DNA of 64,000 nt, taken from Streptococcus henryi DSM 19005 (GTDB lineage: Bacteria > Bacillota > Bacilli > Lactobacillales > Streptococcaceae). Location of the stretch: contig NZ_AQYA01000033.1 of the NCBI RefSeq assembly GCF_000376985.1, positions 1-64,000 of the forward strand. The letters are read 5' to 3'. This document shows positions 31,605-43,601 of the stretch, in pieces. Made by a program: the position numbers and the translations under genes. The notes beneath the pieces are model-generated. The model saw nothing but the letters and a program-made list of their open reading frames with translations. It ran no database searches and was not told the origin of the DNA. Within the stretch, counting starts at the first letter, position 1; each line of letters opens with the position of its first letter.

Positions 31605-32423
31605 CTATCGTTTTTTGTTCTTTTTCAAAGATTTGGATATTGTTTTTGATGATTTGTTATTTTTGTTGTTTTTTGAATTCTTTTTCACTTTTTTGGATTT
31701 TTGGGATGGATTTTTTGAATTTGTCTTACCATCTTCAGCAGTAGAACTCTGACTTTCTTGTTCAGAATTTGGAACGTTTTCCTGACTACTTTCTGGTTCC
31801 AAAATCTCGCTTTCTGACTCTTGAGCGACCACTTCAGGCTCTTCAACTGACTGACTTTGATAAATAAAGTTATAAAGATTTTGGGCAGTTACTCCGCCTC
31901 CTACCCAACCAGAAACCACCTGACCATTCTTAATATGAAGAATTGTCGGAGTTCCTGGGATTCCTAGTGTTTGAAAAACAAATTCTCTTGCACTTTCATC
32001 AAAATCTTCCCCGGAAGTATCGTAATATTCTAACTTACCATCAATTAATTGATTAAACTCTCTCAATTCTGGAGAAAACTGGCGGCAGTAATAACAAGTT
32101 CCTCGTCCAAAATAGATAGTATGCTCCAATCCATCTTCTGTAAAGTCTAAATGTAGCTCACTAATACTAATTTTATTGAAGTCAGTAACATTTTCCTCAT
32201 ATTCTTCAATACTAATTTCAATTGCATTCTCAGAGTCAGCTGAATTTGCTTCATCTGATACCTTATTGACTACCTCTTCTGGCACTTCATCCTCTACAAG
32301 AACTGTCACAGCTTGTTCAGCTGAAGATACAGCTTTCTCCGCATCAGCAAGTACCGCACTTGTTCCTAAAGTAAGCAAGATTGCTAAGCTGAATAAAAGT
32401 GATTTGAGTAATTGTTTTCTCAT
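31605..32423 (-). CDS. blpG: secreted thiol:disulfide oxidoreductase of the bacteriocin locus
   Basis: A 272-residue exported thioredoxin-fold protein. The signal peptide of about 26 residues ends near VLADA. An acidic linker follows, then the redox motif C110-Y-Y-C113 ([11 protein letters not shown]) and the cis-Pro region [14 protein letters not shown]. The C-terminal 80 residues are a low-complexity Glu/Ser then Lys/Asn/Ser tail that may bind cell wall or membrane. In S. thermophilus the BlpG thiol oxidase is needed for thermophilin 9 activity. Here the two-Cys class IIa peptide is the obvious client. It has a strong blp-regulon promoter. Confidence 0.85.
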
Positions 32424-35547: not shown

Positions 35548-35653
35548 AGTATAGCACTTCTTCAAAAAAAATTTCCTTCATTTCCTAAACAGTCATTGAA
35601 TCGTCCTAAACGGGAAATTTTATCCGTTTAGGTCCTAATGGTAACCGTTCAGG
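35548..35653 (-). promoter_or_regulatory. promoter of the second bacteriocin with back-to-back box pairs
   Basis: Minus-facing boxes CCTAAACAGT (35584-35593) and CCTAAACGGG (35605-35614); 30 bp to -10 TATACT (35548-35553). A plus-facing pair TCCGTTTAGG (35623-35632) and ACCGTTCAGG (35644-35653) follows after 8 bp, with no -10 at the standard place. Confidence 0.85.
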
Positions 35654-39407: not shown

Positions 39408-39557
39408 ATGGACAAGCAAAAAACAATCAATTCATTCACAGAACTTACATCAACTGAACTTAATGACATCAAAGGTGGAGGTATTTTAGAATATCTTTTA
39501 GAAAAAATCAATAACTCGCAAAAAAAAGCCAGTGAACCACGTTATAAAATTGGATGA
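39408..39557 (+). CDS. blpC: BlpC-type inducing pheromone precursor
   Basis: A 49-residue precursor. The leader is 24 residues (MDKQKTINSF then TELTSTELNDIKGG), matching BlpC leaders closely. The mature peptide is about 25 residues starting GILEYLLEKINN and ending PRYKIG. An AAAGGAGG site lies 6 nt upstream. It is expected to be cut and exported by BlpAB and sensed by BlpH. The mature part differs from pneumococcal BlpC types as I recall them, so it probably defines its own pherotype. Confidence 0.88.
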   Translation: MDKQKTINSFTELTSTELNDIKGGGILEYLLEKINNSQKKASEPRYKIG

Positions 39558-39669: not shown

Positions 39670-39725
39670 CTCATAGTTTCTAGTGAAATAACAAAACATT
39701 TCACTAGAAACTATGAGGTTTTTTC
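39670..39725 (+). terminator. long perfect hairpin terminator after blpC
   Basis: CTCATAGTTTCTAGTGAAAT (39670-39689) pairs over 20 bp with the stretch at 39698-39717, followed by GTTTTTTCG. It ends blpC and shields the following IS remnant; it may have come with that element. Confidence 0.8.
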
Positions 39726-39727
39726 GT

Positions 39728-40467
39728 ATGTCCAAAAGAAGTAAAAAGAGTATTGAAGAAAAGTTAGATACTGTCTTGTCTCACCTTGAGAAGGGGAAAT
39801 CACTAGGTCAGTTATCAAGGAGATTTGATGTCGCCATGCAGTCTCTCGAAAAATGGACTAGATGTCATCAATCTGATGGTATAGATGTTCTTGTGGAAAG
39901 TCATACTTGGAAGAAATACACATCGGAATTGAAGAAGTCTGCTGTTGAAGACAATCTCCTTAATCGAGACTTTACCGCCACTGCTCCCAATCAGAAATGG
40001 TGTACAGATGTCACTTTTATGACCTATGGATTAGGCAGTAAGGCCTATTTAAGTGCTATTAAGGATCTCTACGATGTCTCAATCGTAGCCTATCATATCA
40101 GCCAACTAACGATAATCCACTGGTCATGGCAACACTAACTAAAGCTATGGAAGCCAACCCTGGTGCCAGACCTCTTCTTCATAGTGACCGAGGCTCTCAA
40201 TATACTTCTAGAGAGTACCGTACGGTGACCACACAATATCAGATAACACGTTCTATGTCCCGTGTTGGCAAGTGTATTGATAACGCTCCGATAGAAAGCT
40301 GCTTTGGTCATTTTAAGACAGAGTGCTACGATTTAAAAATGTACAAGACTTTTGAAGAATTAGTCACAGATATTGATACCTACATCTATTTTTACAATAA
40401 CCAACGTTTTCAAGAGAAGAACAATGGCCTTGCTCCTCTTGAAATGAGGAACAAGGCCGTTGCTTAA
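39728..40467 (+). pseudogene. IS3-family (IS150-type) transposase remnant
   Basis: The N-terminal part (MSKRSKKSIEEKLDTVLSHL) is an OrfA helix-turn-helix. It is fused by an internal deletion near codon 80 to the OrfB catalytic domain (RDFTATAPNQKWCTDVTF). A one-base loss near 40110 (after AYHISQ) shifts the frame into the second half (SDRGSQYTSREY and NNQRFQEKNN). DDE residues are present but the gene is broken. It separates blpC from blpH. Imperfect ends lie near 39657 and 40510. Confidence 0.85.
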
Positions 40468-40611: not shown

Positions 40612-41934
40612 TCACATCCTAATCTCAAATACCTGACAAAATTTATGATTTTGGCTAGATGTATTTATTGATACATTTGGATACTTATCAATAATTTTCA
40701 GTACATTATTTAATCCAATTCCTCTGCCTTCCCCTTTGGAACTAACACCGTATGAGTAGAGCTCCGGGGTAGGCACTGTTTCTTGCTTACTAGCATTCTC
40801 TATAATAAATAAATGCTTTTTATCCACTTTGAGGTAGGCAATATTTATAAAAGAATTTTTTTCTACTTCAAGGGCTGCTTCAATAGCATTATCACACAAG
40901 ATAGAAACGATTGTAATAAAATCAACCAATTCCATTCCCTGTGGCTCTATAGCTTCAGGAACTTCTAGAGTCACAGAGATATTATTTTCACTTGCCTGCA
41001 TGAATTTTGCGGATAAAAGACTTTTTAAGGCTGGATTATTAATATTAATTAATCGTCCTATATCATATTTTTTATTATGAAACTGTTGATTGGTATCCTT
41101 AAGCACAGAATTGTAGACTTCTTTAATTTGTTCAAGATTTTCATCCTCAATCCCTAATCTTAGTGTCGTCAATAAATTGGTATAATCATGCCTGAACCCT
41201 TTAACCTCACGATAGAGCTCCTCAATGTGAGTACTATAGTTTTCCATATTAATCAATTGTAGCTCCTGCTGAAAGTTCAGTTTTTCTTGAAGCCTGTCTT
41301 TCAAATGTCTATCTAGCGAAGTAATCATTCCCATAAAAATAATCAGATATAGAATAATCATGATTTCTCTATAACTCTGAGTATTAATCTTTTTCTCAAA
41401 TTCTAAGTAAGTCAACATCTGTACAATAATATAGTAACTAACCATAATCCAATTAGTCAGATAAAGGATATTTCTGTCTTTTCTATCCAGAAGATCACTC
41501 CTCAATTTTGAAAAATCGTACTTCAGCCACTTCAAAAAAAGTAGTACTAGTAAAATAGCAATAAAATCTAGAATTGTATTGTAAAAGCTACTTTCAAAAA
41601 AAAGGGAATCTATACCAAATAATGGTAGCACAAAAAAACTGATTGATCTGTAAAACAGGTTCCATAAAGTAATTGGAAATAACCCATAAAAAATAATTAG
41701 GACTTTAGAAAGATGTCTCCATATCAAAAATGATAATAGAATCATGTATATGGGTAGTGATAAATAATAAAAGACATGTTCCGAACTTAAAGGTAATAAC
41801 ATTATGGCTATCCTAATTAGAAATGCTACCGTCAATTCCTTTGAACTAAACCTATTAGCATTAACTTTAGAAAACAGAAAAATAGGTAGACCAATATCAA
41901 TTAGTAAATAAATAATCTTATAAACTGCAGTCAT
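40612..41934 (-). CDS. blpH: pheromone-sensing histidine kinase
   Basis: HPK10-type quorum-sensing kinase for the BlpC peptide. The 440 residues comprise six to seven N-terminal membrane helices (about 1-205), a short coiled coil, the phospho-acceptor H249 in GFRHDYTNLL, an N box SILCDNAIEAALE and a G box GEGRGIGLNN. It lies 13 bp after blpR and is cotranscribed with blpS-blpR. The frame is complete. Confidence 0.94.
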   Translation of the reverse strand: MTAVYKIIYLLIDIGLPIFLFSKVNANRFSSKELTVAFLIRIAIMLLPLSSEHVFYYLSLPIYMILLSFLIWRHLSKVLIIFYGLFPITLWNLFYRSISFFVLPLFGIDSLFFESSFYNTILDFIAILLVLLFLKWLKYDFSKLRSDLLDRKDRNILYLTNWIMVSYYIIVQMLTYLEFEKKINTQSYREIMIILYLIIFMGMITSLDRHLKDRLQEKLNFQQELQLINMENYSTHIEELYREVKGFRHDYTNLLTTLRLGIEDENLEQIKEVYNSVLKDTNQQFHNKKYDIGRLININNPALKSLLSAKFMQASENNISVTLEVPEAIEPQGMELVDFITIVSILCDNAIEAALEVEKNSFINIAYLKVDKKHLFIIENASKQETVPTPELYSYGVSSKGEGRGIGLNNVLKIIDKYPNVSINTSSQNHKFCQVFEIRM

Positions 41935-41947
41935 TCCATTCTCCTAA

Positions 41948-42685
41948 TCAATGTAATTTATCTATCGCCTTTATAACATCATCAACCTTATTTCTCGCAA
42001 TTAGACAAGTTGTACCATTTTCAAAATAAGCAAGGCGCTCCTGTCTATCCACTTTGACCACATTTGAAGGGTTGATGAGGAAAGAACGATGACATCGAAT
42101 CAGCCTTTTTTCTTGTTTTAGAATGTCTGATAAATTAGCTGTAAATTCCATTCGGTCTGTATTAGTATATAAGATAACTCGGTGCGGACGAGGAGAAGTC
42201 TCTAGATAAAGCAATTCCTTATAGGGATACTGGACTTGAGCATACTTTGAAGTAAAGTAAAAAGAATCTTCGGCGATAGTCTTAGCATTTTTAGAATAAG
42301 CATAAGTCAGAGCATCCTCAATTCGTTTCTCAAAATTTTCTGCCGATAACTCCTTATCAATATAATCTAAAGCTGAAATTTGATATCGGAAAGATAATGG
42401 CATGAATTCTGAATGTGTTGTCACAAATACAATAATAGCATAAGGGTCCTTATTTCTAATCTGTCTAGCGACCTCAAGACCTTTTTTCTCTTCCTCCTTA
42501 ATTTCAATATCTAAAAAGAAGAGTTGATGAGCGCCTTTTTCTTCAACAGCAGCTAACAATTGATCTGGCTTTCCAAAAACCTCAAATATTTTGGGCTCAA
42601 TTTGATGTTTCCTAATTAATCCTGTTAAAGTAGTCTCAATCCTAGCCTGCTGAGTAAAATCATCTTCTAAAACAAATATATTCAT
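41948..42685 (-). CDS. blpR: LytTR response regulator
   Basis: Activator expected to bind the 21-bp-spaced box pairs of this island. The 245 residues begin with a receiver domain with acidic pocket E7-D8-D9 and phospho-acceptor D59 (LFFLDIEIKEE). A LytTR DNA-binding domain follows (about 140-245, RLIRCHRSFLINPSNV). Start 42685 is chosen because AAGGAG is 9 nt upstream; an earlier ATG directly abuts the SD. It begins 1 bp after the blpS stop. Confidence 0.94.
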   Translation of the reverse strand: MNIFVLEDDFTQQARIETTLTGLIRKHQIEPKIFEVFGKPDQLLAAVEEKGAHQLFFLDIEIKEEEKKGLEVARQIRNKDPYAIIVFVTTHSEFMPLSFRYQISALDYIDKELSAENFEKRIEDALTYAYSKNAKTIAEDSFYFTSKYAQVQYPYKELLYLETSPRPHRVILYTNTDRMEFTANLSDILKQEKRLIRCHRSFLINPSNVVKVDRQERLAYFENGTTCLIARNKVDDVIKAIDKLH

Positions 42686-42686
42686 G

Positions 42687-43028
42687 TCACGCATCTCCTT
42701 TATTCAATAGCAATTCACGTAAGTAACCATAGCGACGTCTTGAAAATTTAACCCTGTATTGGCCACTATTTCCTAAGATGAGTTCTTTTTCTTGAAAGCG
42801 AACCTCTCTTATCTGAGAAATGTTGACCAAGCAATTTCGATGACACCTGGCCAGATCTTCTGAAAAATTTATCTCCCAGTTCTTCAGTTTATCTATTACA
42901 TCATAATTAGTGTCCGCAGTAATAACTTGAACATAATGAGGTTTTTCAGGATGGGTTCTGATGTAATAAATATCTGATAAATTTAATTTGATAATATCCT
43001 GATTCTTGTTAATAATTACAGTAGTCAT
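42687..43028 (-). CDS. blpS: LytTR-only DNA-binding protein
   Basis: A 113-residue protein consisting only of a LytTR domain (SDIYYIRTHPEKPHYVQV, LARCHRNCLVNISQIREV and a C-terminal VKFSRRRYGYLREL). It has no receiver. BlpS of S. pneumoniae has the same make-up and position (blpSRH), with no settled function. Start 43028 has GGAGG 8 nt upstream. It is autoregulated through a box pair and probably competes with or assists BlpR on the same sites. Confidence 0.88.
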   Translation of the reverse strand: MTTVIINKNQDIIKLNLSDIYYIRTHPEKPHYVQVITADTNYDVIDKLKNWEINFSEDLARCHRNCLVNISQIREVRFQEKELILGNSGQYRVKFSRRRYGYLRELLLNKGDA

Positions 43029-43049: not shown

Positions 43050-43191
43050 AGAGTAACACAAAATAGGAAAGAAAAACTTTCATATCCTAAACGGTTGTTG
43101 AAACATCTTAAACGGTATTTATTTACAGTTCAGGACAGTTCAATGACTGTTTAGGATATAGTCATCCGAACTGATTTTTCTATGTTAGACT
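43050..43191. promoter_or_regulatory. bidirectional blp-regulon promoter (blpS / pseudo-receiver gene)
   Basis: Minus-facing boxes CCTAAACGGT (43086-43095) and CTTAAACGGT (43107-43116); 30 bp to -10 TACTCT (43050-43055). Plus-facing boxes ACAGTTCAGG (43125-43134) and ACTGTTTAGG (43146-43155); 30 bp to -10 TAGACT (43186-43191). The two pairs are 8 bp apart, as in the three back-to-back bacteriocin promoters. Confidence 0.85.
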
Positions 43192-43220: not shown

Positions 43221-43601
43221 ATGATTTCAATTTTACCCAATTCCCTGATGAGTGTGGTGACTATGCTAATGGTCAGACTTTACTTATTAGAGAACCAACA
43301 AATTTTAAAAATAAAAGTAATTCTTGGATATTATCCTTGTAAAACGTTTGCACCTAGCACTTATTTTATCATAAAATCAAGATTCCTCACAGCAGAACAG
43401 ATGCACTCCTATCTGAAGGATATTCGACAAAGATCCCAATTAGCTACGATTATTATTATCGGTAAAGATATCAATTACGAAGAACTCTTTAAAAATCATT
43501 ACCGTGTTTTTGGAGTCATTGACACTAGCGACAAGTTCTCATTACGAGACATTCGAAAACAAATCAACGATTGCCTAGATGCTATCTACTCAACAAACTA
43601 A
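43221..43601 (+). CDS. receiver-like protein without phospho-acceptor (pseudo-receiver)
   Basis: A 126-residue soluble protein that I do not recognise by name. Its second half aligns with the BlpR receiver: LKDIRQRSQLATIIIIGKD with ARQIRNKDPYAIIVFVTTH, and FGVIDTSDKFSLRDIRKQI with SALDYIDKELSAENFEKRI. Where BlpR has FFLD59, this protein reads FIIK, and the N-terminal acidic pair is missing, so it cannot be phosphorylated in the usual way. There is no DNA-binding domain. It is driven by the blp boxes and divergent from blpS. It may bind BlpR, BlpS or BlpH and modulate the circuit (inference). Confidence 0.6.
   Translation: MISILPNSLMSVVTMLMVRLYLLENQQILKIKVILGYYPCKTFAPSTYFIIKSRFLTAEQMHSYLKDIRQRSQLATIIIIGKDINYEELFKNHYRVFGVIDTSDKFSLRDIRKQINDCLDAIYSTN

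Follow-up and report, generated by a model that had tools for sequence, protein, structure and literature searches.

A stand-alone relative of the BlpR receiver, predicted to be phosphorylation-dead, in blp loci of Streptococcus henryi and other streptococci

The blp locus of Streptococcus henryi DSM 19005 encodes a small protein, here called pRec, that is derived from a BlpR/ComE-type receiver domain; the homology is real. Judged from its residues, pRec is a phosphorylation-dead receiver, which should be unable to take phosphate from the kinase BlpH in the usual way. Our tentative proposal, which we would not call probable, is that BlpR induces this pseudo-receiver and that pRec then pairs with the receiver of BlpR and so may limit the response, although its effect could also be of the opposite sign. 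The window, that is the whole stretch of DNA analysed (64,000 nt, contig NZ_AQYA01000033.1), contains the following parts of the locus.

43221-43601, plus strand: pRec, stand-alone pseudo-receiver of 126 aa, beta1-alpha1-beta2-beta3-alpha3-beta4-alpha4-beta5-alpha5 in the model, alpha2 not formed
43183-43191, plus strand: putative extended -10 element TGTTAGACT, a sequence match only, 29 nt past the pRec-facing box
43129-43156, plus strand: blp box (BlpR-type direct repeat) facing pRec, 4 mismatches to the consensus, matrix score 39.4
43085-43112, minus strand: blp box facing blpS-blpR-blpH, no good -10 element behind it
42687-43028, minus strand: BlpS, LytTR-only protein, 113 aa from the ATG (Pfam LytTR, E 4.9e-20, with a query two residues short)
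41948-42694, minus strand: BlpR, response regulator with receiver and LytTR domains, phospho-accepting Asp intact (Pfam Response_reg, E 1.6e-9; LytTR, E 6.2e-17)
40612-41934, minus strand: BlpH, AgrC-type histidine kinase (NCBIfam AgrC model, E 1.3e-41, below the cut-off of the model)
39408-39557, plus strand: BlpC-like pheromone precursor with double-glycine leader, from its match to a BlpC query (E 2.4e-6)

Transposase-like fragments, recognized by eye, lie between blpC and blpH (39713-40467). Farther away, a gene at 31605-32423 (minus strand) has a blp box to itself and codes for a secreted-looking protein of 272 aa that contains the motif CYYC; this protein may correspond to the gallocin thioredoxin-domain protein for which the name BlpT is also in use. 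The same genome has a second module (G000:C24:48000-54000), in which a 118-aa paralogue of pRec (L062) is divergent from its own BlpS, BlpR and BlpH and is adjoined by ABC transporter genes.

The pRec reading frame starts with ATG and has AAAGGG upstream. Among its relatives, the median dN/dS was 0.18 (range 0.04-0.57) over 58 non-independent pairs with dS of 0.1-2.0, and 56 of these pairs were below 0.5; the window copy, whose identity to other members does not exceed 56%, is absent from the 40 pairs listed. Since the relatives are under purifying selection, pRec is a gene and not a chance open reading frame. Domain libraries gave nothing near significance for the window protein, with best E values of 0.15 in Pfam and 0.072 in NCBIfam and nothing up to E 0.1 in PHROGs. 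It stays below the gathering threshold of the Pfam receiver model Response_reg (PF00072), with no match up to E 10, and the homologues L128 and L061 gave weak matches to this model, also below the cut-off.

The kinship with BlpR emerged from comparisons within the family and with known structures. A family profile (A1), built from 22 pRec sequences, matched the receiver of the window's own BlpR (G000:C33:42287-42529) with an E value of 3.6e-6 in a search of one genome, and blastp with the window BlpR found the remote pRec members L031 (1.7e-7) and L002 (4.9e-6) in a small set of open reading frames from 32 loci. Searched against 177,635 distinct PDB sequences, the profile had ComE receivers as its top three matches, with E values of 1.2e-4 to 6.9e-4. 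The AlphaFold (AF2) model of pRec (pLDDT 89, pTM 0.84) has the CheY-like beta/alpha topology of a receiver except for alpha2, which is missing; Foldseek placed the ComE receiver first (E 3.1e-4, the sole match below 0.001), and VIA-align gave ComE a Z of 15.0 (rmsd 2.4, 122 residues aligned) and the best non-ComE chain a Z of 11.9. For L081, a distant member whose locus has no blpS (model pLDDT 87.7), ComE was again first with Z 13.4, just 1.0 above Spo0F (Z 12.4). The initial annotation, made from the sequence of the window, had aligned the protein with the BlpR receiver and named structure prediction against receiver domains as a check; profile, blastp, PDB sequences and predicted fold all bear this alignment out, and the protein does stand alone, without a DNA-binding domain.

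All five catalytic positions of the window pRec differ from those of BlpR. The BlpR residue Asp62 (numbered from the listed start of the open reading frame; Asp59 from the next Met) aligns with Ile51 of pRec, YFII standing against FFLD, while the acidic pair D11/D12 is replaced by N7/S8, Thr92 by Gly81 and Lys114 by Thr102. The loss of the acidic pair had been recognized in the initial annotation, which also read FFLD59 as replaced by FIIK; the Asp is indeed lost, but that register was off by one, the Asp falling on Ile51 and not on Lys52. In a joint alignment of 33 pRec sequences below 85% identity (from 56 full-length ones) with 31 neighbouring BlpRs, the Asp is lost in 33 of 33 homologues (I in 28, V in 4, T in 1) and the catalytic Lys is likewise absent in all of them. 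The first acidic position is acidic in none and the second in one (L062), with two gaps at each, and Ser or Thr is kept at the Thr position in 17 of 33 (G 13, S 12, T 5, A 2, D 1). The neighbouring BlpRs retain the Asp in 31 of 31 and the Lys in all 28 that align there (three gaps). The Asp, acidic pair and Lys of a functional CheY-type response regulator are thus not found in pRec, and because Asp and Lys are lost family-wide and the acidic pair nearly so, the usual phosphate uptake from BlpH is not expected.

Searched as a single sequence, pRec had matches in 30 of 147 Streptococcus genomes (E 0.01), and a scan of a genome collection with this sequence alone named one locus, in S. suis DE512T1 (L032). 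The family profile found matches with E values of at most 1.7e-15 in 56 of 284 Streptococcus genomes, five of which (G054, G058, G113, G168, G194) hold degenerate pieces and no pRec open reading frame. At the weaker cut-off of E 1e-4, 177 of the 284 genomes match, and most of the weaker matches fall in open frames of 240-280 aa, which we interpret as BlpR/ComE receivers. Among 295 genomes drawn from the order, one of another family (G355) holds a full copy.

Gene order was compared in 72 fetched regions (L061-L131, L160; the window's own locus excluded), of which 59, many of them close relatives and therefore not independent, have a pRec open reading frame at E < 1e-10. The other 13 regions were left out for want of such a frame: degenerate or truncated copies (L076, L090, L091, L092, L093), 176-aa proteins of uncertain kinship (L095-L098), BlpR-type fragments (L099, L100) and weak matches (L130, L131). 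Four of the frames kept are short, with 71-94 aa (L063, L075, L094, L114). In 55 of 59 loci, the pRec frame and a BlpR-type regulator are transcribed away from each other; 31 of these loci have blpS-blpR, one blpS and a split blpR, and 23 blpR directly, without blpS; these 23 include L114, in which the adjacent blpS is broken by stops, and L094, which has an assembly gap. A survey of the linkage to blpS had been suggested at the outset, and this linkage holds for 32 of the 55 divergent loci but not for the other 23. Among the 33 sequences below 85% identity, 21 (window included) are with blpS, 11 without and one elsewhere. Distances between pRecs correlate with those between the adjacent BlpRs (r 0.81, 52 loci, 0 of 999 permutations), so the two are inherited as a module.

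The four frames not beside blpR are those of L064-L066 and L075; at L064-L066, pRec adjoins a blpA-like transporter gene, with no blpR nearby and a box on either strand. In one genome, G136, both kinds of locus are present (G136:C5, G136:C27), one having blpS and the other not, and each has a pRec of its own. The N-terminal part of the 176-aa protein of L095 (2541-3071) and L096-L098 resembles the pRec family (profile E 2e-8 to 4e-8), no blpS, blpR or blpH being found there within the 5.5 kb retrieved; L096, L097 and L098 do not differ in the first 70 residues of the protein.

The promoter region of pRec was compared with a blp-box consensus drawn by eye from the window and with a matrix made from seven other boxes of the window, for which the 99.9th percentile of random 170-nt stretches is 10.4. 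Eleven window sites match the consensus with at most 9 mismatches, and each of five shuffles (mononucleotide, one strand) gave 0 or 1. The spacing of 29 nt between the pRec-facing box and its -10 element recurs at the minus-strand boxes at 35583 and 33351, which stand at the same distance from TGCTATACT and are followed by small genes that read like bacteriocin precursors. The window pRec thus has a blp box with a -10 element at the spacing of the BlpR regulon, and its induction by pheromone via BlpR is to be expected from these elements. A blp-box promoter divergent from blpS had been proposed to drive the gene, and the box at 43129-43156 together with TGTTAGACT agrees with this proposal. Elsewhere, the pRec-facing box exceeds the matrix threshold in 25 of 59 loci and not in 34, the threshold coming from 170-nt stretches and about 240 nt being scanned per locus; a variant TTCATGA-type repeat was seen by eye in several of the loci below it. 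In S. pneumoniae D39, the single-gene promoter PblpT is reported to be BlpC-dependent and PblpS is not (PMC4739728, in the part consulted).

The surfaces of pRec bear on the question of its partner. In complexes of histidine kinases with response regulators, alpha1 and the beta5-alpha5 loop are the surfaces in contact with the kinase, and the fold by itself keeps the beta strands of every receiver conserved. Conservation within the pRec family is high at beta3 (0.76), beta5 (0.74), alpha4 and beta4 (0.64 each) and the alpha4-beta5 loop (0.62), and low at alpha3 and alpha5 (0.42 each) and at alpha1 and the beta5-alpha5 loop (0.37 each); the alpha2 region is poorly kept. By alignment, the best-conserved helix and loop, alpha4 and alpha4-beta5, are the dimer face of ComE, whose interface is formed by the alpha4/alpha4-beta5 stretch with the Val102-Leu105 loop (PMC6010298, in the part consulted). 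A near-invariant residue of pRec, His93 (32 of 33, the exception being L127), is aligned to Gln101 of ComE, which sits where alpha4 ends, beside this loop. Measured by BLOSUM likeness to BlpR, alpha4 is the highest-scoring helix (+1.55; alpha1 +0.22, alpha3 +0.78, alpha5 +0.18). However, mimicry of the interface is partial, because the likeness of the alpha4-beta5 loop to BlpR scores 0.01 and, in plain identity, alpha3 (0.25) ranks above alpha4 (0.21). Furthermore, the alpha4-beta5 stretch is no more like the cognate BlpR than like other BlpRs, so co-adaptation with the cognate regulator is not seen there. Identity to the adjacent BlpR is 0.14 at alpha1 and 0.02 at the beta5-alpha5 loop, and here too similarity is no higher than to other BlpRs. 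Since alpha4 is by BLOSUM the most BlpR-like helix and the kinase surfaces are not BlpR-like, pairing of receiver with receiver is, with these caveats, favoured over docking on the kinase.

In the mechanism that we propose, the pheromone, BlpH and phosphorylated BlpR would switch on pRec through its own blp box, alongside the bacteriocin genes. The conserved alpha4-beta5 face is the most likely site at which the protein would then pair with the BlpR receiver, and the resulting heterodimer would carry a single DNA-binding domain where the BlpR dimer has two. As fewer active dimers of BlpR would occupy the two-part blp boxes, induction may be limited or ended, while BlpS would be a separate accessory brake on DNA. 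As pRec would be a product of the induced state, this amounts to delayed negative feedback. More speculatively, pRec may represent an unnamed and widespread kind of quorum-induced dominant-negative receiver, in which a bare copy of the BlpR receiver, devoid of its chemistry, would serve independently of BlpS as a timed brake by poisoning BlpR dimers, and a single circuit could then hold the full regulator and both of its halves; we put this forward as a conjecture that is possible but falls well short of probable.

The same anatomy would suit the opposite effect, in which pRec holds un- or singly phosphorylated BlpR in an active state and strengthens or prolongs the response, and mutual activation of receivers in heterodimers has been discussed for CmrT/CmrR (PMC12632262, in the part consulted). 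Boosting at two-part boxes is made less simple by the missing DNA-binding domain, and we think such a positive co-regulator rather unlikely. Titration of BlpH, one of the roles first suggested, would make pRec a non-phosphorylatable substrate that docks on the kinase in competition with BlpR. Its receiver fold is kept, and the same review (PMC12632262) speaks of such binding competitors, but the kinase-docking surfaces are poorly conserved in pRec and do not look like those of the neighbouring BlpR. That variability is weak evidence against docking, because alpha1 (0.57), the beta5-alpha5 loop (0.58) and alpha5 (0.45) are also the less conserved parts of BlpR, as expected for the first two if each protein follows its own kinase; the suggestion is thus weakened and not overturned, and we judge it improbable. 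Much the same degree of doubt applies to a free-standing effector, a pRec homodimer that would act elsewhere, for instance on a transporter, a protease or immunity, and be regulated solely by its BlpR-dependent induction. Its own blp box, as found at bacteriocin-type genes, would suit this role, as would the three blpR-less loci beside a blpA-like gene and the model, put forward in PMC12632262, of a constitutively active pseudo-receiver controlled through its expression; against it stands the fact that 55 of 59 loci have pRec linked to blpR.

A role of pRec as dimer partner of the LytTR-only BlpS had also been suggested, and the two would then form a split response regulator. The two genes face each other in 32 of 59 loci, and BlpS and pRec occur together in 33 of 284 genomes (odds ratio 4.3, Fisher p 3.9e-6, uncorrected for kinship). 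At the thresholds used, however, 23 of the 56 pRec genomes have no BlpS match and 57 of the 90 BlpS genomes no pRec. When 23 genomes with blpS-less loci were re-examined by profile search, a BlpS-like open reading frame was not found in 15. Judged from open-frame lengths, ten of these 15 have LytTR frames of 151-196 aa listed, and five (G020, G052, G072, G075, G283; G052 being 86% complete) have no LytTR-only open frame. Because these five carriers show no LytTR-only protein, a role dedicated to BlpS is very unlikely, and this part of the initial annotation is not supported as worded, also in view of the 23 of 55 divergent loci without blpS. Finally, pRec could be a decaying, functionless remnant of a duplicated response regulator, as the degenerate copies (L076, L090, L091, L092, L093) and the short frames (L063, L075, L094, L114) might suggest, but purifying selection, wide conservation, near-invariant residues and the promoter box contradict this, and it is hardly credible. 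The reading that we retain, with the reserve stated above, is that of a BlpR-induced partner of BlpR that would limit the response, in keeping with the titration of BlpR suggested at the outset.

In the pneumococcal locus, the position of pRec is comparable to that of blpT, a single-gene unit of unknown function at the blpS end with its own promoter controlled by BlpR/BlpC (PMC4739728, PMC4517551, PMC4860687, in the parts consulted). Four of the loci fetched (L144-L147) are taken to be pneumococcus-like, and in these the pRec profile matched nothing but BlpR at E 1. This assignment is presumed for G264 and others from the BlpC of G264, which is 98% identical to the BlpC query. Upstream of blpS, the slot (L144:2624-3227, with equivalents in L145 and L146) encodes a 107-aa protein and an 83-aa double-glycine peptide, neither of which, in L144, has a Pfam match up to E 1; we presume the slot protein to be BlpT from the gene order. 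An orthology of pRec with pneumococcal BlpT, suggested by the shared position, was rejected, the slot proteins of the pneumococcus-like loci being unrelated. The S. gallolyticus gene also named blpT (gallo_rs10370), which has a thioredoxin domain, is a different gene (PMC10100652, in the part consulted).

The literature searched, mostly outside subscription journals, covered the locus, pseudo-receivers in bacteriocin systems, ComE, receivers and shut-off, and a receiver-only protein of blp loci was not found described in it, in line with the initial annotation, which knew of no counterpart; the consulted parts of PMC9638458, PMC10826417, PMC10059821 and PMC8515946 contain no such protein. Pseudo-receivers and BlpS are already known, and it is the BlpR-linked family of bare pseudo-receivers that is apparently undescribed in this literature. 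Pseudo-receivers, or aspartate-less receivers, are a known class (PMC12632262, PMC4395418, in the parts consulted), and their mechanisms in bacteria 'remain a mystery' according to a 2025 review (PMC12632262). As a bare domain beside its parent type of regulator, with and without BlpS, pRec is a minimal case of such a protein, and the small pheromone circuits to which it belongs lend themselves to reporter assays. With pRec, the blp loci gain a gene that is conserved and unannotated, and if it is a brake, it would be a new way of limiting bacteriocin quorum responses.

The closest known structures are the ComE/BlpR receivers (PDB 4mld, 4ml3, 4cbv), which share sequence family and fold with pRec, whereas pRec has lost the Asp, the acidic pair, the Lys, alpha2 and the DNA-binding domain. 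With the pseudo-receivers at large it shares a receiver fold without the phosphorylation chemistry, and one of them, CmrT, likewise sits inside an otherwise normal two-component system (PMC12632262, in the part consulted). RitR of streptococci and CmrT of Clostridioides are atypical response regulators, while pRec is a bare domain (PMC12632262). In contrast to both, pRec is divergent from its likely parent, stands under the parent's type of promoter and leaves the Pfam receiver model silent. For the pairing proposed here, the parallel is WhiI/BldM, in which an atypical receiver protein heterodimerizes with another regulator, but WhiI acts with its partner as a response regulator and pRec has no output domain (PMC12632262). 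BlpS, a LytTR-only repressor in S. gallolyticus (PMC8545106, in the part consulted), is, like pRec, half of a BlpR-type regulator in the same locus. It is the DNA-binding half, whereas pRec is the receiver half and is present also without BlpS. The feedback that we infer for pRec and BlpR is comparable in its logic to that of DprA and ComE, and DprA is not known to have any kinship to receivers. Induced downstream of ComE, DprA inactivates phosphorylated ComE and so limits the response (PMC7665891, in the part consulted).
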